In this document: one piece after another, positions 1 through 48,110 of the stretch | Numbering within the stretch: the first letter of the stretch is position 1 | Layout: each line of letters opens with the position of its first letter | Assembly: GCF_029910215.1 (NCBI RefSeq) | Contig: NZ_CP110395.1 | Span: forward strand, 4,402,001 to 4,466,000 | Length of the DNA: 64,000 bases | Direction: 5' to 3' | From: Paraburkholderia sp. D15 | GTDB taxonomy: Bacteria > Pseudomonadota > Gammaproteobacteria > Burkholderiales > Burkholderiaceae | Position numbers and translations under genes: made by a program | The notes under the pieces: model-generated | The model's database searches: none | What the model was told of the DNA's origin: nothing | The model's input: the letters and a program-made list of their open reading frames with translations, nothing else

Positions 1-1518
1 ATGATCGATCGGCTTGCCGAGCAGGGCCGTCGCCTCGTCGGCCGGTAGCGTCTTGGGATTCACCCATGTCGTGCGCAACCGCTCTGTTTCACGTGAAACA
101 GCGTCGCGCTTGCGGCTAAACGCATCCCAGCGGATGTCATCGACAACGCCTAGCTCGCGTCCAATCTCCGTCAGACGCATATCCGCATTGTCTTCGCGCA
201 AGCTCAGGCGATACTCCGCGCGGCTCGTGAACATGCGATACGGCTCCGACACGCCACGCGTCACCAGATCGTCGACCAGCACGCCAAGGTAAGCTTGATC
301 GCGGCGCGGACACCAGGCTTCCTTGCCCTGCACAAACAGACCCGCATTGATGCCCGCCAGCAGACCTTGTGCGGCAGCCTCTTCATAGCCGGTCGTGCCG
401 TTAATCTGACCCGCGAAGAACAGCCCGTTAATCACCTTCGTTTCCAGCGATGCCTTCAGGCCACGCGGGTCGAAATAGTCGTATTCGATCGCATAGCCGG
501 GTCGCAGAATGTGCGCGTGCTCCAAACCGCGCATCGAGCGAACCAGTTCGAGTTGCACGTCGAACGGCAGGCTTGTCGAGATCCCATTCGGGTAGAACTC
601 ATTGGTGGTCAGCCCTTCAGGCTCAAGGAATATCTGGTGCGATTCTTTCGACGCAAACCGGTGAATCTTGTCCTCGATCGACGGGCAGTAGCGCGGCCCC
701 ACCCCTTCGATCACACCGGTGTACATCGGCGAACGATCCAGACCACCGCGAATGATGTCGTGCGTCCGTTCATTCGTATGCGTCACCCAGCACGGAACCT
801 GCCGTGGATGCTGCTCGACACGCCCCAGGAACGAGAACACCGGCACCGGATCCAGATCGCCGGGTTGCTCTTCCAGCTGCGAGAAATCGATCGTGCGGCC
901 ATCGATCCGCGGCGGCGTCCCCGTTTTCAGACGCCCTTGCGGCAGCTTCAACTCCTTCAACCGCGCGGACAACGAGACGGCAGCCGGATCGCCGGCACGG
1001 CCGCCGGTGTAGTTATTCAGGCCCACGTGAATCTTGCCGTCGAGAAAAGTCCCCGCCGTCAGCACTACCGCACGGGAGCGGAAGCGAATGCCCACTTGAG
1101 TCACCGCACCGACGACACGGTCGCCTTCCACCATCAGATCGTCGACGGCCTGCTGGAACAGCCACAGATTCGGCTGATTCTCCAGCCGATGCCGGATCGC
1201 CTGCTTGTACAGCAGCCGGTCGGCCTGAGCGCGCGTCGCGCGAACCGCTGGCCCCTTCGACGAATTGAGGATACGGAACTGGATACCGCCCTCGTCCGTC
1301 GCGGCCGCCATGGCGCCGCCGAGCGCATCGACCTCCTTGACCAGATGGCCTTTGCCAATCCCGCCAATCGACGGATTGCAGCTCATCTGTCCGAGCGTTT
1401 CGATGTTGTGCGTCAGCAGGAGCGTTTTATTGCCCATGCGAGCCGAAGCCAAAGCGGCCTCGGTACCGGCATGGCCGCCGCCGACGACGATTACGTCAAA
1501 TTCTGTGGGAAAAAGCAT
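1..1518 (-). CDS. mnmG: tRNA uridine-5-carboxymethylaminomethyl modification enzyme MnmG (GidA), 3' end cut by window edge
   Basis: FAD-dependent partner of MnmE; together they install the carboxymethylaminomethyl group at C5 of the wobble uridine of certain tRNAs. The minus strand opens with [20 protein letters not shown], with the Rossmann GGGHAG at residues 13-18. The reading frame stays open for 506 codons to the window edge; the family is usually about 630-650 residues, so roughly the last fifth is missing. The start at 1518 is chosen because the conserved N-terminus follows directly. A parS palindrome lies inside the coding sequence (codons 473-478). In many bacteria mnmG lies beside rsmG and parAB, which would be to the left of this window. 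Identification is firm. Confidence 0.96.
85..100. other. parS: parS centromere site inside mnmG
   Basis: TGTTTCACGTGAAACA is a perfect 16-bp palindrome identical to the widespread chromosomal ParB-binding consensus. The symmetry extends one more base on each side (84-101). It is encoded within mnmG, where the minus-strand codons read AVSRET. ParB loading here would act in origin segregation. Confidence 0.88.
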
Positions 1519-1624: not shown

Positions 1625-1660
1625 AAAAAAGCGGCGTGTTTCACGTGAAACACGCCGCTT
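1625..1660 (-). terminator. Intrinsic terminator of the liv operon, formed by the parS palindrome
   Basis: Read on the minus strand, downstream of the livF stop, the 1629-1660 palindrome is a GC-armed hairpin followed directly by six T residues (1630-1625) and CGTC. That is the form of a rho-independent terminator. The same bases therefore appear to serve as terminator and as ParB site. A perfect palindrome has almost no loop, so the real hairpin would open a few central pairs. Confidence 0.7.
1629..1660. other. parS: parS centromere site inside a 32-bp perfect palindrome
   Basis: The 16-bp core TGTTTCACGTGAAACA lies at 1637-1652. It is extended on both sides by complementary arms (AAGCGGCG and CGCCGCTT), giving 32 bp of perfect symmetry. 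The site lies between mnmG and livF. It is the second exact parS copy in 1.6 kb, supporting a primary-chromosome origin region. Confidence 0.9.
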
Positions 1661-24176: not shown

Positions 24177-24692
24177 TCATTTCTTCTTCGCCTTCTTGAC
24201 CGACGTCTTCGCCTTCTTCGCGGACTTGCCCTCGCCCTTCTCTTTCTCCGGCGGCGCCAGCATCGTGCCGCGGCACTTGCGCGCGCCGCAACGGCATTCG
24301 TATTCCTTCTTCAGCTTCTTGGTCTGACGTGCATCGATCACGAGGCCGTAGTCGTAAAACACTTCCTCGCCTTCATCGATATCGCGCAACGCGTGCACGT
24401 ACACGTGACCGTCGATTTCCTCCGCCTCGCAGTTCGGCGCGCACGAGTGGTTGATCCAGCGCGCGCTGTTGCCGTCGACCTTGCCGTCGATCACCTTGCC
24501 GTTGTCGAGCGCGAAATAGAACGTGTGATTCGGTTCAGCCGGATTGTGCGGATGCCGGCGCAGCGCTTCTTTCCAGGAAATCCGCTCGCCCTTGTATTCG
24601 ATCAGCCGCTCGCCTGCCTTGATCGGTTCGGTGGCAAACACGCCTTTGCCGTGCACACCCGAACGGCGCACGGCGATCCTGCGTGAACTCAT
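24177..24692 (-). CDS. SET-domain protein (putative protein lysine methyltransferase) with lysine-rich tail
   Basis: 171 residues. SET motifs in order: GVHGKGVFATEPIKAGERLIEYKGE near residues 12-36, TFYFALDN, ARWINHSCAPNCEAEE (cofactor-binding NHSCxPNC), GEEVFYDYG, then a post-SET cysteine cluster YECRCGARKCRGTM. The last 30 residues are basic and rich in Lys and Ala (KSAKKAKTSVKKAKKK), like a histone-H1 tail. The ATG at 24692 is chosen because the SET fold starts there; a longer frame upstream is arginine-rich with no support. Substrate unknown. Some bacterial SET proteins are effectors that act on host chromatin; no secretion signal is visible here. Confidence 0.88.
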   Translation of the reverse strand: MSSRRIAVRRSGVHGKGVFATEPIKAGERLIEYKGERISWKEALRRHPHNPAEPNHTFYFALDNGKVIDGKVDGNSARWINHSCAPNCEAEEIDGHVYVHALRDIDEGEEVFYDYGLVIDARQTKKLKKEYECRCGARKCRGTMLAPPEKEKGEGKSAKKAKTSVKKAKKK

Positions 24693-24911
24693 TGAATGAA
24701 TCCTTGTGAATAACGGGGGATGAGGTCCTGCAGCCGCCGAACGTGCCCGCGTTCGACGCCGCTTTTTCCGCGACGCTAATAGCAAACGCGGCGCCTTGCG
24801 AGCGCCGCGTCGACGTGTGGCGCATCTACGCCACATCCGGCATCGTACACGCTGTAGATGGCTTCCTTCAACCGTCAAAAAGACGCCATCCCATCACGCG
24901 CGCGACACGCT

Positions 24912-26024
24912 TCAACGTTGTCCGAACGATATGTCGCCGAACAGCGCTTTCTGCTCGCGCGGCTGCGAACGCCAGTATTGCGGCGGCGCTTCGACAGTGG
25001 CGCCAAGCTGGGCCGCGGCGTGCCACGGCCAACGCGGGTTGTAGAGCAACGCGCGGGCCAGCGCGATCAGATCGGCGTCGCCCGCTTCGATCAGTTGCTC
25101 GGCGTGCAGCGGATCGGTGATCAAACCGACGCCGATGGTGACCAACCCCGTCGCTTCCTTGACCGCCTTCGCGAACGGAATCTGATAGCCGGGTTCAAGC
25201 GGAATTTTCTGCAACGGCGATACGCCGCCTGACGACACGTCGATCCAGTCGCAGCCGCGTTTCTTCAACTCCTGGGCGAACGCGATCGTGTCTTCGACGC
25301 TCCAGCCGCCGTCCACCCAGTCGGTGGCCGAGACGCGCACGCCGACCGGTTTGTCGGCCGGAAACGCGGCGCGCACGATGTCGAAAATTTCGAGTGGAAA
25401 GCGCATGCGGTTTTCGAGCGAACCGCCGTAGTCGTCGCTGCGCTGGTTGGCGATCGGCGACAGAAATTGATGCAGCAGATAGCCGTGTGCGGCGTGCACT
25501 TCCAGCGCGTCGATGCCCAGGCGCGCGGCCCGCCGCGCGGAGGCCGCGAACGCTTCGCGGATCCGGTTCAGCGCGGGGATATCGAGCGCCAGCGGTGGCT
25601 CCTCGCCCGCCTTGTGCGGCAGCGCCGACGGCGCGTGCGGCAACCAGCCGCCTTGCGATACCGGAATCAGCTGTCCACCATCCCATGGCGCGTGGCTCGA
25701 TGCCTTCCGGCCCGCGTGCGCGAGCTGCATCGTCACCTTGATCGACGAATGCTTGCGAATCGCGGCCAGCACCGGCACGAGCGCGGCCTCGGTCACGTCG
25801 TCCCACAAGCCGAGATCGCCGGGCGTGATACGTCCGTCGGGTTCGACGGCGGTCGCTTCGATACAGAGCATCCCCGCGCCCGACAACGCAAGACTGCCGA
25901 GATGGATCATGTGCCACGCCGTGGCTTCGCCGCGATCGGCGGAGTACTGACACATGGGTGACACGACGATGCGGTTGGGAAGCGTCACGCTACGCAGCGT
26001 GAGCGGAGAGAAAAGCGCGCTCAT
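24912..26024 (-). CDS. Old yellow enzyme-type NADPH:flavin oxidoreductase (YqjM/XenA group)
   Basis: 370-residue FMN TIM-barrel enzyme that reduces activated C=C bonds and can reduce nitro compounds. Visible landmarks: SPMCQYSADRGEATAWH with Cys25 and Tyr27 (thermophilic-like class), MQLAHAGRKAS, HAAHGYLLHQFLSP, NQRSDDYGGSLENRMRFPLE and ALARALLYNPRWPWHAA. These place it with YqjM/XenA rather than classical OYE1. It stands alone on the minus strand. The start is the first ATG of the frame. Confidence 0.92.
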   Translation of the reverse strand: MSALFSPLTLRSVTLPNRIVVSPMCQYSADRGEATAWHMIHLGSLALSGAGMLCIEATAVEPDGRITPGDLGLWDDVTEAALVPVLAAIRKHSSIKVTMQLAHAGRKASSHAPWDGGQLIPVSQGGWLPHAPSALPHKAGEEPPLALDIPALNRIREAFAASARRAARLGIDALEVHAAHGYLLHQFLSPIANQRSDDYGGSLENRMRFPLEIFDIVRAAFPADKPVGVRVSATDWVDGGWSVEDTIAFAQELKKRGCDWIDVSSGGVSPLQKIPLEPGYQIPFAKAVKEATGLVTIGVGLITDPLHAEQLIEAGDADLIALARALLYNPRWPWHAAAQLGATVEAPPQYWRSQPREQKALFGDISFGQR

Positions 26025-26936: not shown

Positions 26937-27575
26937 TTATTGGGCGAAGATCTTCCAGGTCTTCTTCTGGGTGGCGACGTCGGCGACTTCGTACACCGAG
27001 CAATCCAGCCGCACGTCCGTGTCCGACATGTTCATGTCGAGCAGCGAGCAGTGATGTGGCGTCTTCTTCGGATTCTTGCTCGGCTCGAAATGCGAGCAGG
27101 TCAGGCACATGCGATGCGCCGGAATCGTGCCCTGCGCTTCGAGTTGGTGGACGGTCTTCAGCAACGTGCGATAGAACACCGATTGCTCGTCGTCCTTCAA
27201 CGTGCCGACGGCCTTGGCCAGGAAGTCCGGCCATTGCGCGGCGCGCTTCGCGGCGGTACGGCCGCGTGCGGTCAGGCGAACCGCGAGCGCACGACCGTCG
27301 TCGAGGGCGCGGCGCTTTTCGACCAGACCCTTGGTTTCGAGCGTGCTGACGGCATCGCTCGTGGTCGCGGCGGTCAGCGCCGTTTCACGTGCGATCTCGC
27401 CGAGGCGCATCGGGCCCTTGCGCTGCATCAGCAGGACGAGGATTTCACCCTGCGTCGGCGTGAGGCCAGCGCCTTCCGCCCATTCCCAAGCCTGGCTTCG
27501 CATCGCCGTGCTCAATCGCAAGAGGCTGTGGGTCACTCGCCCGGTTGCCTGTTCTCCGTATACGCCTTCGCTCAT
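26937..27575 (-). CDS. MarR-family regulator with cysteine-rich C-terminal extension
   Basis: 212 residues from MSEGVYGEQ. The MarR winged helix spans about residues 35-115 (LTPTQGEILVLLMQRKGPMRLGEIARETALTAATTSDAVSTLETKGLVEKRR). After the dimer helices comes an unusual tail with CLTCSHF, then HHCSL and RLDCSVYE: four Cys plus His that could bind zinc or an iron-sulfur cluster. The frame is open to 27638, but the ATG at 27575 is the better start. It borders the left origin half. Target genes unknown. Confidence 0.87.
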   Translation of the reverse strand: MSEGVYGEQATGRVTHSLLRLSTAMRSQAWEWAEGAGLTPTQGEILVLLMQRKGPMRLGEIARETALTAATTSDAVSTLETKGLVEKRRALDDGRALAVRLTARGRTAAKRAAQWPDFLAKAVGTLKDDEQSVFYRTLLKTVHQLEAQGTIPAHRMCLTCSHFEPSKNPKKTPHHCSLLDMNMSDTDVRLDCSVYEVADVATQKKTWKIFAQ

Positions 27576-28053
27576 AATCTTCGATTCGTGTATTGACAGC
27601 CCGGGTTCAGTTCCGGCGACCTGTTCGCCGACCCGCACCCAAAGCCTGTATGGGGTAGCCTCGCCCGGTTGCGGACAAGACGGTTTCTACTATCTCAAAA
27701 ACTTGCCGCCTTGCGAGCCAAGGCAGCGAAAACGACATTCTATGCGAGAGCGGCGAATCGTACAGCTAACTTATCCAACGCAAGCTGTGGATAACAACGG
27801 GAAAACTAGCGGAACGCGTGTGCATCGATTCTTGATAAACGACTGCGCGGCCTGATTCGCTCGCCGGGTTATCCCCGTTTACCGCCGTCGACGCGCCTTC
27901 GTTCTGCCCACTTATCGTTTACGCAGCGCGTTGACTTTGAAGGGAATTATTCAGTTGTCCACAGGCCTCGCCAAGGCTTGTTAACTATTACTACGTTTGT
28001 ATACGTTAACGTTATAAAAACTTGAAGCGCTTCGAGCTGGAAAAAATAAATTA
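27576..28053. other. oriC: Predicted left half of a bipartite replication origin (oriC)
   Basis: Non-coding. Perfect DnaA box TTATCCACA on the minus strand at 27786-27794, a near-perfect TTGTCCACA at 27955-27963, and weaker forms at 27771 and 27869. On the minus strand an AT-rich stretch (28015-27994, with GTTAAC and GTATAC) leads into TAGTAATAG (27993-27985), TTAACAAG, a GC-rich 13-mer, then the box at 27963. This order fits AT-rich unwinding region, DnaA-trio, GC cluster, DnaA box. The same arrangement recurs inverted at 31158-31394. Confidence 0.68.
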
Positions 28054-28055
28054 TG

Positions 28056-28078
28056 AAAAAACCCGCGCGAGGCGGGTT
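28056..28078 (-). terminator. Intrinsic terminator of the YbdK-like gene
   Basis: Arms AACCCGC and GCGGGTT around a 5-base loop, followed on the minus strand by a T-run (28060-28056). It lies 55 bases past the stop at 28134 and would keep transcription out of the left origin half. Confidence 0.8.
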
Positions 28079-28133
28079 CAGACGGGTTGAAGCGGTTTTT
28101 CTTACGGTTTGGCGTAAGCGCTCGCGGAACGGC

Positions 28134-29249
28134 TTAAGCGCGCCATTGCAAAGTTTGCTGCCGCACGGCTTCGTGCAAGGATTTTTCCTTCTCGAACACG
28201 CCACGCAACCAGGTCGCGTCGTTCACCTGCCCGCGCGCGATCGCGCCGATTTCCGCCAGCGCATTGCCCGAGCCCAGCGCCTCGGCATGCGGCTCGATCA
28301 GATCGAGCGTCTCGAGAATATCTTCGGAAATCGTCTTGCGTTCGCCCGTCTGCGGATTGATGCACGTGCCGGCCAGACCGAAGCGGCACGCCTCGAAACG
28401 GTTGAAGGTGTAGACGAGATAGTCGTCTTCCTGCGGCGTGATCGGCTTGTCGAGCAGCAGATGGCGCGCCAGCGTCTGGATGTAGCAGGCGATCGCCGCG
28501 GCGCGATCCACCGACAGCGGCGTGTCCATCACGCGCACTTCGATCGTGCCGAAACCCGGCTTCGGGCGGATGTCCCAGTAGAAATCCTTCATGCTGTTGA
28601 CCACGCCGGTGTGGACCATCTTCGAGAAATATTCCTCGAAGCTGTCCCAGGTCAGCACGAACGGCGCGCGGCCCGACAGCGGAAAAGCGAACACGGAATT
28701 CAGGCGTGCCGAATGAAATCCGGTATCCACGCCTTGCACGAACGGCGACGAAGCGGACAGCGCGATGAAGTGCGGAATGAAGCGCGACATGGAATGCAGC
28801 AGATACAGCGCGCTGTTCGGATCGGGGCAACCGATGTGCACGTGCTGGCCGAACACCGTGAACTGCTTCGCCAGATAACCGTACAACTCGGAAAGGTACT
28901 GAAAGCGCGGCGTATCGACGATCTGCCGCTCGCTCCACTGCTGGAACGCGTGCGTGCCGCCGCCGCACAGACCGACGTTCAGATGATCCGCCGCGCCGAC
29001 CAGCGTGTCGCGAATCTTGCGCAGATCGGTGACAGCCTGCTCGTGCGTCGTGCAGATGCCGGTCGACAGCTCGATCATGCTTTCGGTGATTTCCGGCGTG
29101 ATGTTGCCGGGAATGGTTTCGTCCTTGATGAGGCGAAGCAGATCCGAACCGGCTTTGGTCAGATCATAGTCGTGCGTATTGACGATCTGCATCTCGAGTT
29201 CGACGCCGAAAGTGAACGGCTTCGAATCGATGAAGGGTTCGAGTGACAT
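28134..29249 (-). CDS. YbdK-type carboxylate-amine ligase (glutamate-cysteine ligase family 2)
   Basis: 371 residues with [19 protein letters not shown] at residues 13-31 (metal-binding Glu pair of the GCS2 fold), [34 protein letters not shown] and [13 protein letters not shown]. The family has weak glutamate-cysteine ligase activity; the true role is not settled. The real gshA lies at 55 kb, so this is not the main glutathione enzyme. Preceded by AGGGGAC. It lies between the two predicted origin halves, together with the antiporter gene. Confidence 0.88.
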
Positions 29250-29268
29250 AGCGTCCCCTGAGTCAGGT

Positions 29269-29304
29269 CGGCCGCACGGTTGTCATCCGTGCGGCCGTTT
29301 TTTT
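29269..29304 (+). terminator. Plus-strand intrinsic terminator without a matching gene
   Basis: 11-bp perfect stem (29269-29279 with 29287-29297), 7-base loop, then seven T residues on the plus strand. Both neighbouring genes run on the minus strand, for which there is no T-run. It would stop rightward transcription coming from the left origin half through ybdK. Confidence 0.7.
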
Positions 29305-29362
29305 GAATCGAATCAATCGAAAACTGCGAACCAGCACTGCGTGCGCCGACGGCGCCGCGCGC

Positions 29363-30568
29363 CTATTCCTCGCGCCGCTCGGCCACCATCGCGAGGCTGC
29401 GATACACGAGCCACGGCCCGAGAATCTGCAGCACGAAAATCGAGCACATCACGATGGCGCGCAGTTGCGGGTCGAAATTCGGATAAAGGTTGTAGGTGTC
29501 GTCGACCAGTAGATAAGCGAGCGCCGACATGGGCGACAGCGATAACCCGAGCGCCATGCCCTGCTTCCAGTTCAAACCGCTCGGTTTCGCGAATGCCATC
29601 ACACCGACGAGTTTCGCAACGAGACGAGCAACGATCAGGCCCAGCGCCGCGACGCCGCCGAGCGCAATGTCCTTCCATTCGAACGACGTCAGCGTCAGCA
29701 CGAACAGAATCACGGTCAACAGCCAGCCTGCCGTGCCGAAATGCTCCGGCCACAACTGCGGACGCGCTTCATGATTCTTCACGATGATGCCGGCCGCGAG
29801 CAGCGCCAGGATCGTCGAGAGTTTGAACAGATGCGCGACCGCGATGGCCAGCACCACGAGGCCGAACAGCGCGACGAAGGAGTGCTCGTCCTGCATGTTC
29901 AGGCGTCGATAGAAAAACGTGCAGGTCCGCGCCAGCAGATAGGCCAGCACGAGCGAGCCGACCAGCAGATAGAGCGGTTGCAGAATGGTCGCGAAAACGT
30001 TGCCATACGCTTCCTGGTGCAGCCAGCTCGACACGAGCTTTTCGATCACCACGGCGTACATGCTGTTCAGCGCGGTCAAGGTCAGCAGACGTTGCGTGAC
30101 CTGGCCTTCCGCGCGCAATTCCGTCTTGAGCTGGATCACCATGGCCGGCGACGTCGCCATGGCGATCGCGGCAAGCACGGTAGCGACCAGCAACGGGACG
30201 TTGAGAAACAGCAGCACCGGCAACACCAGTGCGAAAGTCAACGTGGCTTCCGCCACGCTCGACAGAATCAGCCAGGGATTGCGGCGAATCCAGCGCAAAT
30301 CGAGCCGGCTGCCGAGTTCGAACAACAGCAAACCGAGCGCGACATCGAGCAGCGGCCGCGCGGCGCTCGCGGAATCCGCGTCGATCACGCCCGAACCGGC
30401 CGCGCCGGCGATCAGACCGATGACGGCATAGCCGGAAATGCGTGGCAAACGCCACGCGCGATAGCACAACTCACCGCATAGGCCGGCGGCAAGCAAAGCG
30501 AGACCAGCCCAAAAAATGGCGTCGGGTGCGAGCGGCCAGGCTGGAAAAAATGAAAACGCCGACTTCAT
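29363..30568 (-). CDS. Cation:proton antiporter of the CPA2 (KefB-like) type
   Basis: Inner-membrane protein of 401 residues, mostly hydrophobic segments. LGLLLFELGSRLDLRWIRRNPW, AIAMATSPAMVIQLKTELRAEGQVTQRLLTLTALNSMYAVV and LALLAAGIIVKNHE correspond to the exchanger domain. There is no C-terminal RCK/TrkA_N domain, so it is the short form. The ATG at 30568 is preferred to 30628 because AGGAGA precedes it and the membrane domain starts soon after. Ion specificity cannot be judged. It sits between the predicted origin halves. Confidence 0.85.
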   Translation of the reverse strand: MKSAFSFFPAWPLAPDAIFWAGLALLAAGLCGELCYRAWRLPRISGYAVIGLIAGAAGSGVIDADSASAARPLLDVALGLLLFELGSRLDLRWIRRNPWLILSSVAEATLTFALVLPVLLFLNVPLLVATVLAAIAMATSPAMVIQLKTELRAEGQVTQRLLTLTALNSMYAVVIEKLVSSWLHQEAYGNVFATILQPLYLLVGSLVLAYLLARTCTFFYRRLNMQDEHSFVALFGLVVLAIAVAHLFKLSTILALLAAGIIVKNHEARPQLWPEHFGTAGWLLTVILFVLTLTSFEWKDIALGGVAALGLIVARLVAKLVGVMAFAKPSGLNWKQGMALGLSLSPMSALAYLLVDDTYNLYPNFDPQLRAIVMCSIFVLQILGPWLVYRSLAMVAERREE

Positions 30569-31071
30569 CGTGATGGGTTCTCCTTGGCAGCAACGGCAGG
30601 CGACACGAACCGGCGCAAACGCCGGCAAGCGGGCGGGCGCATGAAGCGCTCACTGTCGCAATCGCTTCGCGTGACCCGCGTTGCGAGTTTTCAACGATCG
30701 AATGATCTGAATGCGCCGCAGCCGCAGGGAGTCCGGCGCATTCCGGGTGCGGCCGTCGTATACGGCGGCATGGCACGGTGAAAGAACGCCGGCGACTTTG
30801 AATCAGATTCTGATTGACCGGCTCCGTTCCGTTGCAGCGTGTGCCGCTAGAGGCGCGGCACGACGCGGAAAAGAACGGCGATTGTGCCATAGCTTTTTGA
30901 GACTCAAGCGAAAAGGCGCGAACTTGCAGGCAAAACGGTAAAAACGTACGTCATCTTCGCGAGGGGTGGAAAAAGCGACCGTTTTGGGTGAGGGATGGGC
31001 GGTGCGGGACGATGAAGTTTGCCGTTCGAGGATGTGTTTTTCGAGTCAGTGAACGGGGATCGAGGGCGGTC
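30569..31071. other. Non-coding flank between antiporter gene and right origin half
   Basis: About 500 bases holding the antiporter promoter region. Short plus-strand frames are present but none resembles a protein. No terminator, DnaA box or repeat was recognised in this part. Confidence 0.4.
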
Positions 31072-31454
31072 GTTAACGCGGGGTTAACACGGTTTTCTCA
31101 TGACGAGGCCCGTCCAGCTCGCCGCTGCTTTGCTGTTTACTGGTTTACCGTATGTATACGTAGTAACAGTTAACAAGGTGCCTCGGTTTCTGTGGATAAC
31201 TCGGGTTTACCGAAATGAATCATCGGCTTGCCGACGGCATAACCCGATGTACAGGATGTGCGGCAGCGGCGGGTATACGAGGGCAACTTTTGGCAATTTT
31301 CCGCGGCGGGCAAGTTACCCCGTTTACGTCCACAACGGCTCCACATGAGTTGCAGCGGTTAACTGCGTGGTTATCCACAAGATTCGGTGGATAACCTGGA
31401 TGGCTGGTTAACCGGGGTTAACTGTGGTTAACCGCTGACGAGACGTCGCGTCGG
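31072..31454. other. oriC: Predicted right half of a bipartite replication origin (oriC)
   Basis: Non-coding. Perfect DnaA boxes at 31191-31199 (minus strand) and 31371-31379 (plus), and TTATCCACC at 31394-31386 (minus). GTATACG-TAGTAACAG-TTAACAAG, a 13-mer and TGTGGATAA (31154-31199) repeat the left half with the same spacing in inverse orientation. The paired boxes at 31371-31394 (7-base spacer) also recur at 27794-27771. GTTAAC occurs at least seven times; three copies at 31407, 31417 and 31427 are exactly 10 bases apart. The HU gene is 2.4 kb away. Confidence 0.7.
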
Positions 31455-33437
31455 TTAACTCGCCGTCGCCGCCGTGCCCTGACGTAACGCTCTCAATAGA
31501 AAGCGCGCCGGATCGATATCCTCGGCCAGATCCCGCTCGAGCGGCCATGGTTCGCCCTCGATCTGCGATGCGATCAGTTCCGCGCCGAGTGCCGCCCATA
31601 CCAGACCGCGAGAGCCATAAGCGAACGCGCCATACAGGCCGTCCACGCGTGGCAGGTCGAGCGGCCATGCGCCACGCAGACGCTGGGCATCGCGGACCGA
31701 CAGGGTTTCGTCCGCGAGTTGGCCGATCATCGGCATGCGGTCGCTGGTGACGCAGCGGAACGCGACGCGTCCGTCGAGCGTCGCGGCCATCGACTGTGTT
31801 TGCGATGCGATGCTCGCAAAGGCCGGCAGCATCTGCGCAATGCGTTCGAGGTTTTCCAGGTGACCGGCCGTGCGCAGCGAGGTGTCGGGATCGTCGAGTT
31901 CGTACGTGGCGCCCGTCAGCGTGACACCGTTCGCGAGCGGCACGGCGTAGCCGTCGCCGATAACCGGCAGTGCCAGGCGCGGCGCCTGTCCTACAGGCAA
32001 CAAGCTGAGTTGGCCGCGAATGCTGCGCGTGGGCGCGTGCCGCAAACCGGCGATCCGCGCCGCATCGTGCGCATTGGCGACGATCACCACCGGCGCGCGT
32101 GCAACCAATTGACCCGACGTATCGAATACCGACCACTGCTCGCCCATTCTTTCAAGACGCCCGACATCCACGCCAAAGCGACGTTCGAGCAAGCCGCCCG
32201 CCGCCGCGCACTGAGCCGCGCATAGCGACGCCGGGTCGATCCATCCGCCGTGCGGGAAAAACCAGCCGCCGCGCGCGAGCGCCGTGCCGGCGAGCTCCTG
32301 CGCGCGTTGCGCCGACACCGGCGTCACGTAGTCGGACGGATAACCGAATGCGGCGATCGCGTCGCCGATCGAGCGGGCTTCCTCTTCGTCGGACGCGATT
32401 TGCAGAAGCCCCGGCGCGCCGCGCGACGGCCGATACCCCGAGCGTTCGAGCGCGGCCCAGCGATTGAGCGCGTATAAAAAGCCCGCGCGCGTCACGCGCG
32501 ACGCGACGCTGTCGTCGCGAGAAATCATGGGATGAAACACGCCGGCCGGATTGCCCGACGCCTCCTGCGCGAGCGTCGCGTGACGTTCCAGCGACGTCAC
32601 GCGCCAGCCGCGCGCGGTCAGCCGCTCGATCGACGCGCAACCTGCAAGCCCCGCGCCGATCACGACGGCGTGACGTTCGTCCACCGCGAGCGGCGCGGGC
32701 GGCTCGTGACGCCGCACGCGCCAGCGTGGCGCGAAGTGGCCGACGAGCATCGCGCGTTTCCAGCCGAAGCCGTCCACCTTGCGGTACTCGAAGCCGCATT
32801 GCGTCAGCGCCCGTTTGATGTCGCCCGCGCTGCTGTAGGTGGCGACCGTCGCGCCTTCGCCCGCCAGGCGAGCCAGCGATTTGAAGACGAGCGGGCTCCA
32901 CAGTTGCGGATTTCTGGCCGGCGAGAAACCGTCCAGATAGAACGCGTCGGCGCGTAGCCGCAAGGTCGGCAGCGTATCGAGCGCGTCGCCGAATACCAGG
33001 GTGAGCACGACGCGGCCATCGTCGAATTCGAGCCGGTGCGTGCCGGGCACGAGCATCGGCCACGCGTCGGCGAGCGTATCGGCGAGCGCGGCAATGGTCG
33101 GATCGGAAATCGTCTTCGCGTAGACGCTGCGCAGATCTTCCTTCACGAACGGATGCAGTTCCGTCGACACGAAATGCAACCGCTCGCAACGCGCCGGATC
33201 GGCGCGCCACGCAGCCCAGGTCACCAGAAAGTTGATGCCCATGCCGAAACCGGTTTCGAGCACGGTGAAGATGCGGCGGTTTTGCCAGCGCTGCGGGAGC
33301 GCGTTACCGCGCAGAAAAACGTATTCGGCCTGTTCGAGACCGCCGACGGCGCTGTGATAGATGTCGTCGTAAAGCGGCGAAAAAGGTGTGCCGTTGTCGC
33401 GATAAGCGAGGACGGCGGGGATCAGCGGATCGGTCAT
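31455..33437 (-). CDS. mnmC: Bifunctional tRNA wobble-uridine modification protein MnmC
   Basis: 660 residues with two domains. The N-terminal part (to about 240) is the SAM-dependent methyltransferase (LETGFGMGINFLVTW; FYLDGFSPARNPQLWS). The C-terminal part is an FAD oxidoreductase (VIGAGLAGCASIERLTARGW near 260; GAYGSRGL-type end motif AFAYGSRGL). It turns cmnm5(s2)U34 into mnm5(s2)U34, the steps after MnmEG. The full-length fusion is intact. Its stop codon lies inside the last GTTAAC motif next to the predicted origin. Confidence 0.95.
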   Translation of the reverse strand: MTDPLIPAVLAYRDNGTPFSPLYDDIYHSAVGGLEQAEYVFLRGNALPQRWQNRRIFTVLETGFGMGINFLVTWAAWRADPARCERLHFVSTELHPFVKEDLRSVYAKTISDPTIAALADTLADAWPMLVPGTHRLEFDDGRVVLTLVFGDALDTLPTLRLRADAFYLDGFSPARNPQLWSPLVFKSLARLAGEGATVATYSSAGDIKRALTQCGFEYRKVDGFGWKRAMLVGHFAPRWRVRRHEPPAPLAVDERHAVVIGAGLAGCASIERLTARGWRVTSLERHATLAQEASGNPAGVFHPMISRDDSVASRVTRAGFLYALNRWAALERSGYRPSRGAPGLLQIASDEEEARSIGDAIAAFGYPSDYVTPVSAQRAQELAGTALARGGWFFPHGGWIDPASLCAAQCAAAGGLLERRFGVDVGRLERMGEQWSVFDTSGQLVARAPVVIVANAHDAARIAGLRHAPTRSIRGQLSLLPVGQAPRLALPVIGDGYAVPLANGVTLTGATYELDDPDTSLRTAGHLENLERIAQMLPAFASIASQTQSMAATLDGRVAFRCVTSDRMPMIGQLADETLSVRDAQRLRGAWPLDLPRVDGLYGAFAYGSRGLVWAALGAELIASQIEGEPWPLERDLAEDIDPARFLLRALRQGTAATAS

Positions 33438-33851: not shown

Positions 33852-34130
33852 ATGAACAAACAGGAACTGATCGACGCCGTCGCTGGACAGACGGGCGCCA
33901 GCAAGGCTCAAACCGGTGAAACGCTGGACACGTTGCTTGAAGTGATCAAGAAGTCTGTGTCGAAGGGTGACGCGGTCCAGCTGATCGGCTTCGGCAGCTT
34001 CGGTTCGGGCAAGCGCGCAGCACGTACGGGTCGTAACCCCAAGACCGGCGAAACTATCAAGATCCCGGCCGCCAAGACCGTCAAGTTCACGGCTGGTAAG
34101 GCGTTCAAGGACGCCGTCAACAAGCGCTAA
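33852..34130 (+). CDS. hup: DNA-binding protein HU
   Basis: 92 residues, [44 protein letters not shown]. The DNA-binding arm signature [45 protein letters not shown] is complete, and the length is typical. AAGGAACC precedes the ATG. HU bends and compacts DNA and assists DnaA-dependent origin opening. Its position beside the predicted origin is suggestive. A T-tailed terminator follows at once, so it is a one-gene transcript. Confidence 0.96.
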
Positions 34131-42853: not shown

Positions 42854-43318
42854 ATGCAACTGTCGACCACTCGCCGCACCGAAATCGCGGGTCAGCGCAG
42901 CCGTCGTCAACGTGGTTTCACGCTGATCGAAATCATGGTCGTGATCGCGATTCTCGGCATTCTCGCCGCGCTGATCGTGCCGAAGATCATGAGCCGTCCG
43001 GACGAAGCGCGGCGCGTCGCCGCCAAGCAGGACATCGGCACGATGATGCAGGCGTTGAAGCTCTATCGCCTCGACAACGGCCGCTATCCGACCCAGGAGC
43101 AGGGCCTGCGTGCGTTGATCGAAAAACCGAGCACGGACCCGGTGCCGAACAACTGGAAGGACGGCGGCTATCTCGAGCGTCTGCCGAACGATCCGTGGGG
43201 CAATTCGTACCAGTATCTGAATCCGGGCGTGCACGGCGAGATCGACGTGTTCAGTTACGGCGCCGACGGCAAACCGGGCGGTGAAGGCAACGACGCCGAT
43301 ATCGGTTCGTGGCAGTAA
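42854..43318 (+). CDS. gspG: Type II secretion major pseudopilin GspG
   Basis: 154 residues. Prepilin leader ends at RQRG, followed by [25 protein letters not shown] (Glu5 present). The calcium-binding and C-terminal landmarks [29 protein letters not shown] and [23 protein letters not shown] are complete. Main subunit of the pseudopilus. It starts the gspG-N run. Confidence 0.96.
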
Positions 43319-43342
43319 TCCATTCGTCCCGAGAAGGTTTTC

Positions 43343-43900
43343 ATGCAAGTCGGATCGTCCTGCACTGTCGTTCGTTCGGATCGATCCGGTCATGATCGCG
43401 CGCGCGTGACGCTGGGTGTTCGCGGTGTCCGCCGTGTTCGCATGCAGCGTCGCACGGCGGGTTTCACGCTGCTGGAGATGCTGGTGGTGCTCGTGATTGC
43501 GGGCTTGCTGGTGTCGTTGACCGCGTTGACGATGAACCGCAATCCGCGCACGGATCTGAACGAGGAAGCGCAGCGTCTCGCGTTGCTGTTCGAATCGGCG
43601 GGTGACGAAGCGCAGGTGCGCGCGCGGCCGATTGCGTGGCAGCCGGTGGACGGCGGTTTTCGTTTCGATCTGCGCACGGAGGATGGCTGGCGTCCGCTGC
43701 GTGACGATCTGCTGGGACCGCGTCGCTGGGAAGGCGGGGTGACGGGCGTGACGATCAACTATCCGGGTTCGGATACGCAGGCGAATCGCATGGTGTTCGG
43801 CACCGAGGCGATCGACACGCCGGTGCAGATCACGCTGTTTTCGGCGGTGGGACGCGCGACGATCGTCGGCACCGGCAACGGCCGCTATGAGGTGCACTGA
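43343..43900 (+). CDS. gspH: Type II secretion minor pseudopilin GspH
   Basis: 185 residues, cleavage expected after Gly40 in RRTAG, then FTLLEMLVVLVIAGLLVSLTALTM. A 40-residue leader is long. The first ATG has a good GAGAAGG, while the ATG at 43442 would give a normal 7-residue leader but has no ribosome site. Which one is used is unsettled. A GspH-type C-terminal region follows (FRFDLRTEDGWRPLRDD; QITLFSAVGRATIVGTGNGRYEV). Confidence 0.88.
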   Translation: MQVGSSCTVVRSDRSGHDRARVTLGVRGVRRVRMQRRTAGFTLLEMLVVLVIAGLLVSLTALTMNRNPRTDLNEEAQRLALLFESAGDEAQVRARPIAWQPVDGGFRFDLRTEDGWRPLRDDLLGPRRWEGGVTGVTINYPGSDTQANRMVFGTEAIDTPVQITLFSAVGRATIVGTGNGRYEVH

Positions 43901-43922
43901 GATGCGTCGTTGCAGGAACGGG

Positions 43923-44336
43923 ATGATCGACAAAAAAGGCGGCAACGTCACGAACGGCCGCCGCGCGCAGCGCGCTTTCACGATGATCGAGGTGCTGGTG
44001 GCGCTGGCGATCATCGCGATTGCGTTGGCTGCGTCGTTGCGCGCGGTGGGCAGCCTTGCGAGTGGCGAGGCCGATTTGCACCGGCGTTTGCTGGCGGGCT
44101 GGAGTGCGGACAACACGCTGGCGCAATTGCATTTGACGCATGCGTGGCCGAATGTCGGCTCGACGAGTTTCGATTGTTCGCAGGGCAATTTGCAGTTGAT
44201 GTGTACCGAGCAGGTGACGGCGACGCCGAATCCGGTGTTTCGTCGGGTGGAAGTGATGGTGACGACGCCGGGCGGCGCCGGCAATCTGGCGCAGATGGTG
44301 ACGGTGGTCGCGAATGAAACGAACCGTTCGCTCTGA
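43923..44336 (+). CDS. gspI: Type II secretion minor pseudopilin GspI
   Basis: 137 residues from MIDKKGGN, chosen because AGGAACGGG precedes it; upstream ATGs at 43902 and 43887 are possible. The prepilin segment FTMIEVLVALAIIAIALAASLRAV is clear, but the residue before the cleavage site is Ala (QRA before FTMIE; codon GCT) instead of the usual Gly. The C-terminal half carries GspI features (WSADNTLAQLHL; two Cys in FDCSQGNLQLMC). It overlaps gspJ by 23 bases. Confidence 0.87.
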   Translation: MIDKKGGNVTNGRRAQRAFTMIEVLVALAIIAIALAASLRAVGSLASGEADLHRRLLAGWSADNTLAQLHLTHAWPNVGSTSFDCSQGNLQLMCTEQVTATPNPVFRRVEVMVTTPGGAGNLAQMVTVVANETNRSL

Positions 44337-44988
44337 GCGCCGCCGGGATGGCGCGCGTGGTTTCACGCTGATCGAACTGCTGGTCGCGATTGCGATTCTG
44401 GCGGTGATTGCCGTGTTGTCGTGGCGGGGGCTGGACCAGATCATTCGCGGCCGGCAGACGATCACGAACGCGATGGAGGACGAGCGCGTATTTGCGCAGT
44501 TGTTCGACCAGATGCGGATCGATGTGCGGCAGGCCGCGACCGATGACGAAGCGGGTCAAGCCGCGGTGTCGGTATCGGGGAGCGTGTTGCAGGTCGTGAG
44601 GCACATGGTGGTGCCGGGGGCTGCGCCGCGTTTGCAGGTGGTGAGGTACCGGATTTCGGGCGGGCGCGTGGTTCGATATGCGTCGCCGCCGTTGGAGAAT
44701 GTGGGGGAATTGCGGGGAGCGTTGCGCGGCAGCGAGGGAGAAGGCTGGAGTGCGGTGCCGTTGATGGGTGGGGTTGGCGCGATTACGGCGAGGCTGTATG
44801 TGCCCAAGGTCGGCTGGACCATTCAGATGAGCGATGTGCAGACGGCGATTACCGAGGCTGATAATAATCTCAAGGTGCCGCAGCTTGGCAGTGCACCGCT
44901 GCCGCGGTCTGTCACCGGGCTTGAGGTGAGTATTGGGGCTACGTCGTTGGCTAAGCCGGTGACGCGGGTTTTTCTCGTCGGAGAGTGA
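44314..44988 (+). CDS. gspJ: Type II secretion minor pseudopilin GspJ
   Basis: 224 residues; leader ends at GARG, then FTLIELLVAIAILAVIAVLSWRGLDQI. Later GspJ landmarks: LFDQMRIDVRQA, VRYRISGGRVVRYASPPLENV. With GspI and GspK it forms the pseudopilus tip. The second half is strongly enriched in G and T at silent positions, part of a composition change that peaks at the gspJ-gspK border. The last codons contain GGAGAG, the ribosome site of gspK. Confidence 0.92.
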   Translation: MKRTVRSERRRDGARGFTLIELLVAIAILAVIAVLSWRGLDQIIRGRQTITNAMEDERVFAQLFDQMRIDVRQAATDDEAGQAAVSVSGSVLQVVRHMVVPGAAPRLQVVRYRISGGRVVRYASPPLENVGELRGALRGSEGEGWSAVPLMGGVGAITARLYVPKVGWTIQMSDVQTAITEADNNLKVPQLGSAPLPRSVTGLEVSIGATSLAKPVTRVFLVGE

Positions 44989-44989
44989 A

Positions 44990-46657
44990 ATGAAGTTTTC
45001 TTTTTTGTCTCCGCGACGCTCTTGTGTGTTTTCTGGTCATTCTTTTGTTGGCCTTTCCTTGTTTTCGCGTCGGTCTATTTGTGTTCCCCCTGTGCGGGGG
45101 GGCACTTACTTTCTTTGCCGCGGCAAAGAAAGTAAGCAAAGAAAGCCGCTTCAAACCGCCAACATCAAAGCGGCACCCTCGCACAGCCCAAAAAGTGGCC
45201 ACCCTCGCGAGCAGTTCCTCACACAGCAACCCACAGTGACATTGCAGTCATCCGCACCGCCGCTGGCATACCGCACCGACGAGCGCGCAGCGCGAGCCGG
45301 GAAGAATGACTGCCTTGTCACGGACGCGGAATGTGCGGTGGCACAGATTCCAGATGCACCACTGCCGAATGCAGACCACGGAACCCACTTAAGAGTTAGC
45401 GGTGTGAGCCGCTTTCTTTTGCCTACTTTTCTTTGCGGCTGGCAAAGAAAAGTAGGTGCCGCCCCGCACAGGGGCAACGCTAATAAACCAGAAGCAATTG
45501 AATCAAGAGCAAGAGCAAGAGCAAAAGCAAAAGCAAAAGCAAAAGCAAAAGCAAGAGCAACGATAACAGCAAAAACAAACCAGGCAAAACCGAAAAACCA
45601 AACCGGCGTAGCCATCATCAGCGCGCTGCTAGTCGTAGCCCTATCAGCAATCCTGGTCTCAGGCATGCTATGGCGCCAGCAAGTGCAAATCCGAAGGATA
45701 GAGAACCAGCGCCTCCTATCCCAAGCCCAATGGGTAGCGCGCGGCGCCTTAGACTGGACACGCCTGATCCTTCGCTCCGAAGGCGACACATCCGCGGGAA
45801 TCACCTACTTAGGTGGCCTATGGGGCGTCCCCATCGCCAAAACACGCCTATCCGATTTCCTGGGCCAGATCGGCGAAGCCAAAAACTCCCAACAAGCCGC
45901 CGACACCCACCTGTCCGGCTCGATCGAAGACGCCCAAGCGAAATTCAATCTGAGAAATCTGGTCTCCAGCCCCGCCCCCGGCGTCTTGCAGATCAGCGCC
46001 GAACAAGTCGGCGCCTACCAGCGCCTGCTGGTTTCGCTGGGCATCAGCGGCGCGCTAGCCAAAGCGACCGCCGTGCAGGTGCGCTCGAGCCTGACCCAAT
46101 CGGCGACCCGGTTCCAGACCATCACCTCGACGAACGGCACCGCCCCCACTCCGTCCCCGCAAGGCGGCGCGATCGGCGGCACCTTCACCGACAAACCCGG
46201 CATGGAAGACGGCAACGACAACATCACGCAGATGCCGTTGCAGATGACCAGCGTCGACTCGCTCCTCGACATCCCCGGCTACACGCCGGAAACCGTCGCG
46301 CGTCTGCGCCCCTTCGTCACCGTGCTGCCGACGGTGTCGGCCGTCAACATGAACACCGCCTCCGCCGAAGTGATCGCGGCCGTCATACCCAGCATGAGCG
46401 TGTCGTCCGCGCAGGCATTCGTCGCGCGTCGCCAGACGGTGTTCTTCCACAACATCAGCGACGTGCAACTCGCGCTGCAAGGCGCCGGCGCGCAGCAGGT
46501 CTCGATCGACCCGAATCAGCTCGACGTCACCACCAGCTATTTCCTCGTCCACGGCCGCGTTCAGCACGAACGTGCGGTCGTGGATCGCATCACCCTCGTC
46601 TATCGCGACCCGTTGACTCACACTACGCGTATCGTGCGAGTACAAGACCAATCATGA
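44990..46657 (+). CDS. gspK: Type II secretion minor pseudopilin GspK with about 200 extra N-terminal residues from an inserted repeat element
   Basis: The frame from ATG 44990 (GGAGAG before it, one base past the gspJ stop) is open for 555 codons, but GspK is usually about 330-350 residues. Recognisable GspK starts with G206-VAIISALLVVALSAILVSGMLWRQQ (prepilin cleavage expected after Gly206). It continues with RGALDWTRLILRSE, FNLRNL, DSLLDIPGYTP and VNMNTASAEVIAAVIPS, so the mature part of about 349 residues is complete. The first 205 residues are translated from an inverted-repeat element and low-complexity DNA (RARARAKAKAKAKAKARA). Whether this long leader is made, or an internal start is used, is open; no in-frame ATG lies near residue 200. 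Confidence 0.85.
   Translation: MKFSFLSPRRSCVFSGHSFVGLSLFSRRSICVPPVRGGTYFLCRGKESKQRKPLQTANIKAAPSHSPKSGHPREQFLTQQPTVTLQSSAPPLAYRTDERAARAGKNDCLVTDAECAVAQIPDAPLPNADHGTHLRVSGVSRFLLPTFLCGWQRKVGAAPHRGNANKPEAIESRARARAKAKAKAKAKARATITAKTNQAKPKNQTGVAIISALLVVALSAILVSGMLWRQQVQIRRIENQRLLSQAQWVARGALDWTRLILRSEGDTSAGITYLGGLWGVPIAKTRLSDFLGQIGEAKNSQQAADTHLSGSIEDAQAKFNLRNLVSSPAPGVLQISAEQVGAYQRLLVSLGISGALAKATAVQVRSSLTQSATRFQTITSTNGTAPTPSPQGGAIGGTFTDKPGMEDGNDNITQMPLQMTSVDSLLDIPGYTPETVARLRPFVTVLPTVSAVNMNTASAEVIAAVIPSMSVSSAQAFVARRQTVFFHNISDVQLALQGAGAQQVSIDPNQLDVTTSYFLVHGRVQHERAVVDRITLVYRDPLTHTTRIVRVQDQS
45072..45490. mobile_element. MITE-like inverted-repeat element inserted at the start of gspK
   Basis: About 420 bases bounded by long, imperfect terminal inverted repeats of roughly 80 bases. 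Each contains CCCCTGTGCGGGG-type bases and a nested palindrome: 32 bp perfect at 45105-45136, and 15-bp arms at 45422-45436 and 45442-45456. The interior has no transposase and no recognisable protein. Similar CTTTCTTTGCC-type palindromes are, to my knowledge, dispersed in Paraburkholderia genomes. It leaves the gspK frame open. Confidence 0.72.
45505..45558 (+). repeat. Nine hexanucleotide repeats in the gspK leader region
   Basis: Units AAGAGC (three), AAAAGC (five) and AAGAGC (one) in direct succession, encoding alternating Arg/Lys and Ala. Gain or loss of a unit would change the protein by two residues and keep the frame. Confidence 0.85.
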
Positions 46658-46689
46658 ATAACGCCTTTCCCAGAGAGAGTGGCCTTTGA
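46654..46689 (+). CDS. 11-codon coupling ORF between gspK and gspL
   Basis: ATG at 46654 overlaps the gspK stop (ATGA) and the frame MNNAFPRESGL ends with a TGA that overlaps the TTG start of gspL (TTGA). It could hand ribosomes from gspK to gspL, whose own start is weak. No homology is expected for so short a peptide; the call rests on the two exact overlaps. Confidence 0.35.
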   Translation: MNNAFPRESGL

Positions 46690-48110
46690 GCACGCTGATC
46701 GTCCTACTGCCGCCGCGTGATCCGGCGGTGCCATCGCAGGAATGGCAATTGCCGGAGCTGCCGTTCGTGCTGCTCGACAAGTCGGGCCGCACCCAGCGCG
46801 CCGGGCGCTCGGCGCTCGCGCTGCTGCCACGCGCGTCGACCACGGTGCTGATGGTCGCCGCGCGCGACCTGCTGATGATGCCCACCACCCTGCCCCCGCT
46901 GCGCGGCCCGAAGCTGCGCCAGGCGCTGCCGAACATCGTCGAGGATCAACTGATCCAGGACCCGCAGACCTGCCACATCGCCGTCGATCCGAAGCCGCTC
47001 GCGGGCGGCAAGCAGATGCTCGCGATCGTCGACCGTGGCTGGTTCCGCTTTATCTGCGAAGCGTTCTCGACGGCCGGTCACCGCAGCCTGCGCGCCGTGC
47101 CGGTCACGCGCTGTCTGCCGCAAGCGGCCGCCGTGGCCGATGAACCCGCCGAAGTCGCCGAACTGGTCAGCGCCGGCGAACCGGGCGCCCTCGCCGCTGC
47201 CACGGTCGCGACGTCGCTGCCGGGCGTCGCGCCCGTCGTCGCGCCCGGCACGGCCTCGGCGACGCCGATGGTGGCCACCGTGCTCGGCGCGGTCGTCCAG
47301 ACCGCGCCCGCGCTGTTGCTCGAAGGCGCGGTCGAAGTCGCGAACGACAGGACCGTGCCGCGCGTCGAGGTGGCGATCGCCCGTGGCGTGCAAGGCGAAG
47401 GGCTGGCGGTGCCGGCCAACGCCGTGAATGCGACGCTCGCCGCGCTCGCGGGCGCCGCGCCGGTGTCGCTGTACATGCTCACCGAAATTCCCGGCAACGA
47501 GCCGAGCCTTGCCGCGACGAGTCCGGCGCGGCTCGCGTCGCACGTGCACGGCGCGAGTCCGCTGCCGTTCGAACAGCTGGCGCGCCGTGCGCTGGAATGC
47601 CGTTTCGATCTGTGCCAGTTCGAGTTCGCGTCGCAGCCGTGGCGTCTGGATCGCGCGACGCTGCGCCGTCTGCGCCTGCCGGTGCTACTGGCGATCGGCG
47701 CGCTGCTGGTCGCGATCGTCGGCATGAACGTGCAGTGGCTGATGCTTGCGCATCAACGCGACGCGATCAACACGCAGATGACCGAACTGCTGCTCAATAC
47801 CTTCCCGAAGACGACCGTCGTGCTCGACGCACCCGATCAGATGTCGCGCCAGTTGCAGCAATTGCGCGTGGCGGCGGGCGAGTTGTCGCCGGACGATTTC
47901 CTGTCGCTCGCCGACGGCCTCGCGCGTTCGCTGGCGCCGGTGCCGGTCAACGGCATCGCCGCGCTCGATTATCACGACCGCCGGCTCGACGTGACCTTCA
48001 AACCCGAGGTGAAGCTCGACCCGGACTTCGCCAAGCGTCTCGCGCGTAATGGGCTGAATGGCGCGATCGACAGCAATACCGGCAAGTGGACCATCAGGAA
48101 CGGACAATGA
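46686..48110 (+). CDS. gspL: Type II secretion inner membrane assembly protein GspL
   Basis: 474 residues from a TTG start. N-terminal actin-like cytoplasmic domain that binds GspE (STLIVLLPPRDPAVPSQEWQLPELPFVLLDKSGRTQRAG; PTTLPPLRGPKLRQALPNIVEDQLIQDP), an Ala/Val-rich middle part, one membrane helix (LPVLLAIGALLVAIVGMNVQWLML, about residues 335-358), then a periplasmic ferredoxin-like domain (FLSLADGLARSLAPVPVNGIAALDYHDRRLDV). The start is inferred from the GspL N-terminus following at once. It overlaps gspM by 4 bases. Confidence 0.88.
   Translation: MSTLIVLLPPRDPAVPSQEWQLPELPFVLLDKSGRTQRAGRSALALLPRASTTVLMVAARDLLMMPTTLPPLRGPKLRQALPNIVEDQLIQDPQTCHIAVDPKPLAGGKQMLAIVDRGWFRFICEAFSTAGHRSLRAVPVTRCLPQAAAVADEPAEVAELVSAGEPGALAAATVATSLPGVAPVVAPGTASATPMVATVLGAVVQTAPALLLEGAVEVANDRTVPRVEVAIARGVQGEGLAVPANAVNATLAALAGAAPVSLYMLTEIPGNEPSLAATSPARLASHVHGASPLPFEQLARRALECRFDLCQFEFASQPWRLDRATLRRLRLPVLLAIGALLVAIVGMNVQWLMLAHQRDAINTQMTELLLNTFPKTTVVLDAPDQMSRQLQQLRVAAGELSPDDFLSLADGLARSLAPVPVNGIAALDYHDRRLDVTFKPEVKLDPDFAKRLARNGLNGAIDSNTGKWTIRNGQ

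Follow-up and report, generated by a model that had tools for sequence, protein, structure and literature searches.

Does an inverted pair of DnaA-box modules on a Paraburkholderia chromosome form one replication origin split into two halves, as a first-pass annotation of the sequence had proposed, or is each member of the pair complete? That a bacterial chromosome has one origin is nearly a rule, on which this locus bears. The stretch analysed here (the window) is 64,000 nucleotides of Paraburkholderia sp. D15 (G000), positions 4402001-4466000 of the 4,485,038-bp contig C1 (NZ_CP110395.1), in a genome of 8.3 Mb in three contigs. Within it two inverted copies, ~250 bp each, of one element stand either side of ybdK and an antiporter gene, an arrangement far above chance. 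The pair probably marks the region of the chromosomal origin. In this genome we find four copies, each with, by its sequence, the frame of a full Escherichia coli-type oriC. The likely reading, and the one we favour, is that several conserved and complete oriC copies occur per chromosome, the pair being the start region and the second and remote copies being back-up or auxiliary origins, sites competing for DnaA, or both.

Read on its own strand, a copy begins with an AT-rich side holding GTATAC, followed by TAGTAnnAGTTAACAAG, exactly 13 variable bases and TGTGGATAAC with the proximal DnaA box; a less conserved middle then leads to a distal box pair, made of TTATCCACA, 7 bases and nTGGATAA. 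The TAG run has the form of a DnaA-trio at a fixed 13-bp spacing from the box, as the first-pass annotation had it, and recurs across family genomes. The element thus holds both a cluster of DnaA boxes and a DnaA-trio at fixed spacing beside one of them, as oriC-type origins do. Its proximal module was found exactly at 27953-27984 (-) and 31170-31201 (+), with ACG and TAGTAA(T/C)AG immediately upstream, although the left edge falls at 27953 and not at 27954 as first given; the distal module is exact at both of its sites (Table 1), and the box-to-box distances had been given correctly, 169 bp on the left and 180 bp on the right. With ≤3 mismatches allowed, the proximal module has 2 matches where shuffles predict 0.01, and the distal module has 5 where 0.05 are expected (two of the 5 being the same sites on the opposite strand and one, at 31408-31431, having 3 mismatches). 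The left and right copies are the only TGTGGATAA..TTATCCACA pairs 100-300 bp apart in a 323-kb arc, with ≤1 mismatch in each box.

A comparison of boxes and spacing across relatives, which the first-pass annotation had proposed, found them conserved. Of 299 family genomes, 234 have the core of trio, 13-bp spacer and box; 3 of the 299 have it with a spacer one base longer, none of the 3 resembling the element, and a reversed-pattern control gave 6 matches, counted by eye. For the rest of the element we used 92 copies, which also underlie the tree and the counts of intact cores below: the best 93 of 98 model matches were typed (5 rows with expect value E ≥0.016 were dropped, and three G255 copies were labelled by hand), and the left copy of G380 is cut by a contig end. 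A distal pair with ≤4 mismatches of 17 was found in 64 of the 92, that search finding none in the other 28. It lies 168-170 bp from the proximal box in 38 copies, 180-182 bp in 21 and 195-206 bp in 5, so that the 11-bp difference in length between left and right recurs in relatives; a period table of these distances gave no discrimination between periods.

The pair does not stand alone. The proximal-module pattern led to a third copy, which lies 231 kb upstream of the left copy, and a fourth is at C1:33,662-33,923, 89 kb downstream of the left copy; all four G000 copies have the trio, and all fall within ~320 kb around the origin region. The sequence TAGTAnnAGTTAACAAG has exactly four perfect occurrences in the G000 genome and one with two mismatches, the reversed control pattern giving 6 matches at ≤2 mismatches. 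Sequence model R1, built on eight copies (alignment A3), gave four matches to the genome at E ≤10, each with E ≤2.7e-43 and all four among the training sequences. Beside the fourth copy lie a reverse transcriptase gene (PF00078) and a YhcG/DUF1016 nuclease gene (L004:10738-13596, which is C1:30738-33596). Separately, the second contig has a facing pair of perfect DnaA boxes with 17 bp between them (G000:C2:1707459-1707493), perhaps part of its own origin.

Among relatives the element is common. It is present in 135 of 150 family genomes, usually in 1-4 copies each, and in 81 of 299 genomes across the order, some with two or three clustered copies; both searches used stricter filters, at which weak matches are lost. 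Of a further 40 complete genomes, 39 match at E ≤0.1. In per-genus tallies of the core made by eye, all 42 genomes of the own genus (g1; other genera are given by similar handles) have at least two cores (four in 8, three in 21, two in 13), while g151 has three in 13/13, g152 two in 11/11, g143 two in 3/3, and g5 mostly one; the core pattern misses g2 and g146, which have a different trio run. A copy follows dnaA directly in the five g2 genomes among those 40, fills the gap between dnaA and dnaN in G420, and lies between the antiporter gene and mnmG in G341 of g146. Tandem elements, two or three within ~1 kb, were seen in family f8 and in g143 (G269:C5:82400-83428, G298:C1:274954-275976, G615:C14:442458-443360 and, in G308, L245:2531-3263). 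A contig titled as an Acidobacteriaceae metagenome-assembled genome (L117, JAPWKG010000031.1) carries the element beside an AraC gene 85% identical to that of G000, probably through binning contamination.

These data bear on the possibility of a true bipartite origin, in which the DnaA boxes of one copy would loop onto the other copy, where the DNA opens, as in Helicobacter pylori or Bacillus subtilis. The inverted pair, its members ~3.0-3.9 kb apart, is present in genomes of g1, g6, g139, g141 and g152, two cores being kept throughout g152. Moreover, the left copy in 7 of 8 g6 genomes is a box cluster lacking the trio that faces a full right copy, the classical bipartite layout in which only one half carries the unwinding region. 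In G000, however, both halves have a trio, as in most genomes of g1, g139, g141 and g152, and looping would not need the second. Nor would looping explain the remote copies, and single full copies stand in g5 (at the left site, with a degenerate copy after dnaA), in g146 (beside the antiporter gene) and in g2 (between dnaA and dnaN). Because a single full copy is all that some relatives have, the halves do not in general depend on each other. We gave up a simple two-half origin when the third and fourth copies were discovered, and looping between the halves we consider unlikely. What stands of the first-pass reading is that the region looks like an origin in its skew, trio and spacing; what does not is that it is built from two halves, each copy having the frame of a full oriC.

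We defined the sites of the copies by their neighbouring genes. In G430 (g4) and G316 (g151; L248:1813-3264) one copy lies directly between an HU gene and a SET-domain gene; the same two gene types border the block with both copies in the G000 window, so this locus is probably the same as the HU/SET site of those two genomes. In a tree made from a short alignment (midpoint root, no support values displayed), the left and right copies of g1, g6, g139, g141 and g152 form separate groups, so that the inverted duplication probably predates these genera. The same tree puts the left-site copy of g5 among the right copies and sorts those of g151 by site. The nearest relative bears the same site label in another genome for 87 of the 92 copies, the label 'other' lumping several sites.

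We scored a core as intact when it had ≤2 mismatches to any of five trio templates, two of them written after the g139 and g146 variants had been seen, and ≤2 in the box. By this score the core is intact in 21 of 24 right copies (the 3 misses all belong to g146, whose trio is shifted by one base against the template), in 4/4 third copies, in 5/5 fourth copies (that label resting in G369 of g6 on a permease match of 23% identity and in G405 on an AraC match of 43%), in 27/27 at other sites and in 14 of 22 left copies. At the dnaA site the count is 0/10, where the automatic box finder mis-anchored at least 3 of the 5 g2 copies and 3 of the 5 g5 copies, and the zeros of g2 and g146 are not biological counts. 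The trio has been lost from the left copies of the 7 g6 genomes, in all of which the proximal box is still perfect, and from that of G405 in g1. Model R1 finds copies lacking the trio, so the intactness of the others is not simply an effect of detection.

Cumulative GC skew was followed in six genomes, with minima taken on arcs of 80-500 kb and not on whole chromosomes. In G000 the minimum of the contiguous 323-kb arc falls at window position 25,318, 2.5 kb from the left copy, with little change in the curve between 25 and 30 kb; this gives the region the look of an origin region. In G285 the minimum (87,591) lies between the copies at 84,755-85,018 and 87,829-88,028, and in G382 (2,248,932) between those at 2,248,801 and 2,251,772; in G425 it is 6.0 kb from the main copy. 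On these arcs the minimum thus agrees with the copies in G000, G285 and G382 and comes near one in G425, but it does not agree in G316 and G430, to which we return. Away from the pair, the window has a sharp GC-skew swing, +0.20 to -0.13, at 43001-47000.

A second alternative is that one copy of the pair starts replication and the others handle DnaA, by titration like datA or reactivation like DARS. The loss of the trio from eight left copies, seven of them with a perfect proximal box, fits this; so do the clustering of the G000 copies around the origin, by which all would be duplicated early, and a skew turn at the remote copies that does not rise above background. It accounts less well for the third and fourth copies of g1, which keep trio, 13-bp spacing and box in 8/8 while the 13 spacer bases vary, or for exactly three cores being kept in every g151 genome. 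datA and DARS are not known to have a DnaA-trio, and as sites defined by boxes without one they do not match the four G000 copies. We regard a purely DnaA-handling role for the other copies as doubtful.

A further feature of the copies is the motif GTWWAC: 19 of the 25 sites in the window lie in or beside the two copies. Among the 86 sites in 443 kb of G000, the densest 500-bp windows are at the right (14), third (7), left (6) and fourth (6) copies, the next holding 2; seven control motifs of the same shape reach ≤5 per 500 bp anywhere in the arc and ≤1 in the left or right copy. The densest windows also coincide with copies in G430 (13, 8), G285 (4, 4) and G425 (5); in G382 the two copies come out densest (9 and 3), a window near dnaA equalling the second with 3, and in G316 the signal is weak (3, 2). 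All eight left copies lacking the trio have no GTWWAC in the element. As a sequence motif, GTWWAC is thus enriched at the origin in the manner of GATC and SeqA marking. It is an adenine methyltransferase target in Burkholderia cenocepacia, where methylated GTWWAC and CACAG were found at the origins by single-molecule real-time (SMRT) sequencing (PMC7364216), in the accessible text without a tie to several origin copies. The clustering of GTWWAC on the copies points to methylation as a mark of newly replicated origins.

From the layout of the element we infer the following course of events. From the proximal box DnaA would form a filament that crosses the 13-bp spacer, reaches the TAG trios on one strand and opens the AT-rich stretch beyond them; the distal box pair, 169 or 180 bp off (~16 or 17 helical turns), would complete the DnaA complex, the part played in E. 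coli by R4. The two remote copies, like the second member of the pair, would be old paralogues of the same origin. Because the unwinding core is intact in most lineages examined, these paralogues most likely still bind DnaA and can open DNA, and they would act as back-up or auxiliary origins, compete for DnaA, or do both. Methylation of GTWWAC would mark newly replicated origins, as that of GATC does in E. coli.

Several observations weigh against this interpretation. The AT side of the copies is moderately AT-rich, with a mean AT of 0.51-0.60 over 49 bp as against 0.37 in the arc, a figure for composition and not for duplex stability. The skew minimum of G316 (g151) lies ~71 kb away from its nearest copy; that of G430 (g4), taken on a 480-kb arc, falls at 17 kb, near dnaA, with the copies at 298 and 440 kb. 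The third and fourth G000 copies have shallow local skew dips, but the turn there is ordinary, 19-39% of positions being as strong. Model R1 was built from intact copies and so favours them, though it does find those without a trio. The local skew turn is stronger at the left than at the right copy in G000, G285 and G382, against a simple scheme with the right copy as the main origin. Either copy of the pair may be the main one: conservation and richness in GTWWAC favour the right, skew minima and the local turn favour the left; the left copy may have a helper role. By their sequence, the two to four conserved oriC copies per chromosome could serve as back-up or auxiliary origins, as sites that handle DnaA, or in both roles.

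A bolder proposal is that the main chromosomes of Burkholderiaceae are naturally multi-origin, with two to four complete oriC copies of the same ancestry, up to hundreds of kb apart, kept competent by selection, more than one of them starting replication and GTWWAC methylation coordinating them; we think this improbable as it stands. Far less probable is that the copies are promoters through which GTWWAC methylation regulates neighbouring genes. This was proposed for the HU/SET region of Ralstonia solanacearum, where the methylome has three conserved GTWWAC sites between the HU and SET genes that overlap predicted promoters (PMC5390034, accessible part). An intergenic region of this kind holds an oriC copy in G316, whose group g151 is Ralstonia-like on that ground only, but the same element, with its core of trio, 13-bp spacing and DnaA box, stands beside unrelated genes at six or more sites, and these varied neighbours disfavour a role as promoter only. 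Least credible as an explanation is a dispersed mobile repeat in which the DnaA boxes are incidental: it would fit several copies per genome at different sites and the reverse transcriptase gene adjoining the fourth copy, but the site-wise trees, with 87 of 92 copies nearest to a copy of the same site label, disfavour it (terminal repeats and transposases were not systematically searched).

The surroundings of the pair are largely as first annotated (Table 1). YbdK between the copies and MnmC beside them were confirmed by NCBIfam and HU by Pfam, and the parS claim has its counterpart in two parS-type palindromes; the antiporter between the copies has matches only below curated cut-offs. dnaA lies outside the window, as stated, at C1:1312 on the same contig; were the contig circular, this would be ~53 kb downstream of the right copy.

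Table 1. Features of the origin locus in the window (positions as window coordinates)
Feature	Position	Strand	Basis or remark
Left copy, oriC element	27768..28019	-	Sequence model R1, 149.1 bits; alignment A3
Right copy, oriC element	31135..31397	+	Sequence model R1, 164.1 bits
Left putative unwinding core	27953..27996	-	ACG + TAGTAATAGTTAACAAG (DnaA-trio run) + 13 bp + TGTGGACAACT (DnaA box, 1 mismatch)
Right putative unwinding core	31158..31201	+	ACG + TAGTAACAGTTAACAAG + 13 bp + TGTGGATAACT (perfect DnaA box)
Left distal inverted DnaA-box pair	27771..27794	-	169 bp from proximal box
Right distal inverted DnaA-box pair	31371..31394	+	180 bp from proximal box
GTWWAC cluster in left copy	27877..28010		5 sites
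GTWWAC cluster in and around right copy	31072..31459		14 sites
ybdK (carboxylate-amine ligase), between copies	28134..29249	-	NCBIfam NF010040
CPA2-type cation:proton antiporter-like gene, between copies	29363..30628	-	NCBIfam TIGR00932, below curated cut-off
MarR-type regulator, flanks left copy	26937..27638	-	Pfam MarR
mnmC, flanks right copy	31455..33437	-	NCBIfam NF002480
HU gene	33852..34130	+	Pfam PF00216
SET-domain protein gene, other border of conserved origin locus	24177..24878	-	Pfam PF00856
parS-type palindrome	85..100		TGTTTCACGTGAAACA
Second parS-type palindrome	1637..1652		

Those natural exceptions to the single origin that we know from earlier proposals rest on box counts and skew in single genomes (PMC4403523). 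Among them, chromosome 1 of Ralstonia pickettii 12D was given two putative origins 291 kb apart, at hemE and dnaA (Gao 2015); that work used box counts and Z-curves, without mention of Burkholderia and without a shared element, a trio or conservation across genera. For B. cenocepacia, Du et al. 2016 (PMC4948915) named for oric1 the GC-skew minimum, nt1 and a second DnaA-box cluster, leaving the exact origin open; no repeated modules are described in the accessible text. On chromosome 1 of Cupriavidus metallidurans CH34, a stretch of 213 nt beside the skew turn, ~90 kb from dnaA, holds 3 perfect DnaA boxes, and a further box cluster lies elsewhere, reported in the part accessible as box counts and not as repeated origin modules (PMC2864759). 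In Burkholderia pseudomallei, DnaA bound an amplicon of the putative origin with two opposed DnaA boxes near the skew switch (PMC12914326); its likeness to the present element is by description, and the accessible text makes no comparison of copies. In the literature searched, subscription papers and supplements being mostly outside it, we found no description of repeated oriC modules in Burkholderiaceae.

The element described here is a defined one, with the geometry of the E. coli oriC. Chromosomes of several genera carry two to four copies of it, and its sites are conserved between species and, in some cases, between genera. It makes the question of natural multi-origin bacterial chromosomes directly testable, provides precise candidates for the main-chromosome origin of B. 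cenocepacia that had been left uncertain, and suggests a role for GTWWAC methylation.

The element shares with the basal unwinding system of B. subtilis a DnaA box beside DnaA-trios, with an important register between them (PMC6669920); there, as far as the accessible text goes, the trios have boxes 6 and 7 next to them and the origin adjoins dnaA. The bipartite origins of B. subtilis and H. pylori (PMC8235120; PMC4403523) likewise have two separated clusters of DnaA boxes, g6 fitting them best. The pair described here differs from what the accessible parts of those reports describe in that both halves can have a trio, are inverted and are not beside dnaA, and in that further copies exist.

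Comparison with the oriC of E. coli K-12 MG1655 (NC_000913.3) shows differences too: it has one annotated copy, uses GATC and not GTWWAC, and has R4 outside any inverted box pair with 7-bp spacing. Its geometry is nonetheless like that of the element, with the trio-like TTATTAG, 13 bp, TGTGGATAA as box R1, and the inverted TTATCCACA (R4) 180 bp on. Its dense methylation sites, 11 GATC in 232 bp, are comparable to the GTWWAC clusters, and it adjoins mnmG, as does the copy in G341 of g146.

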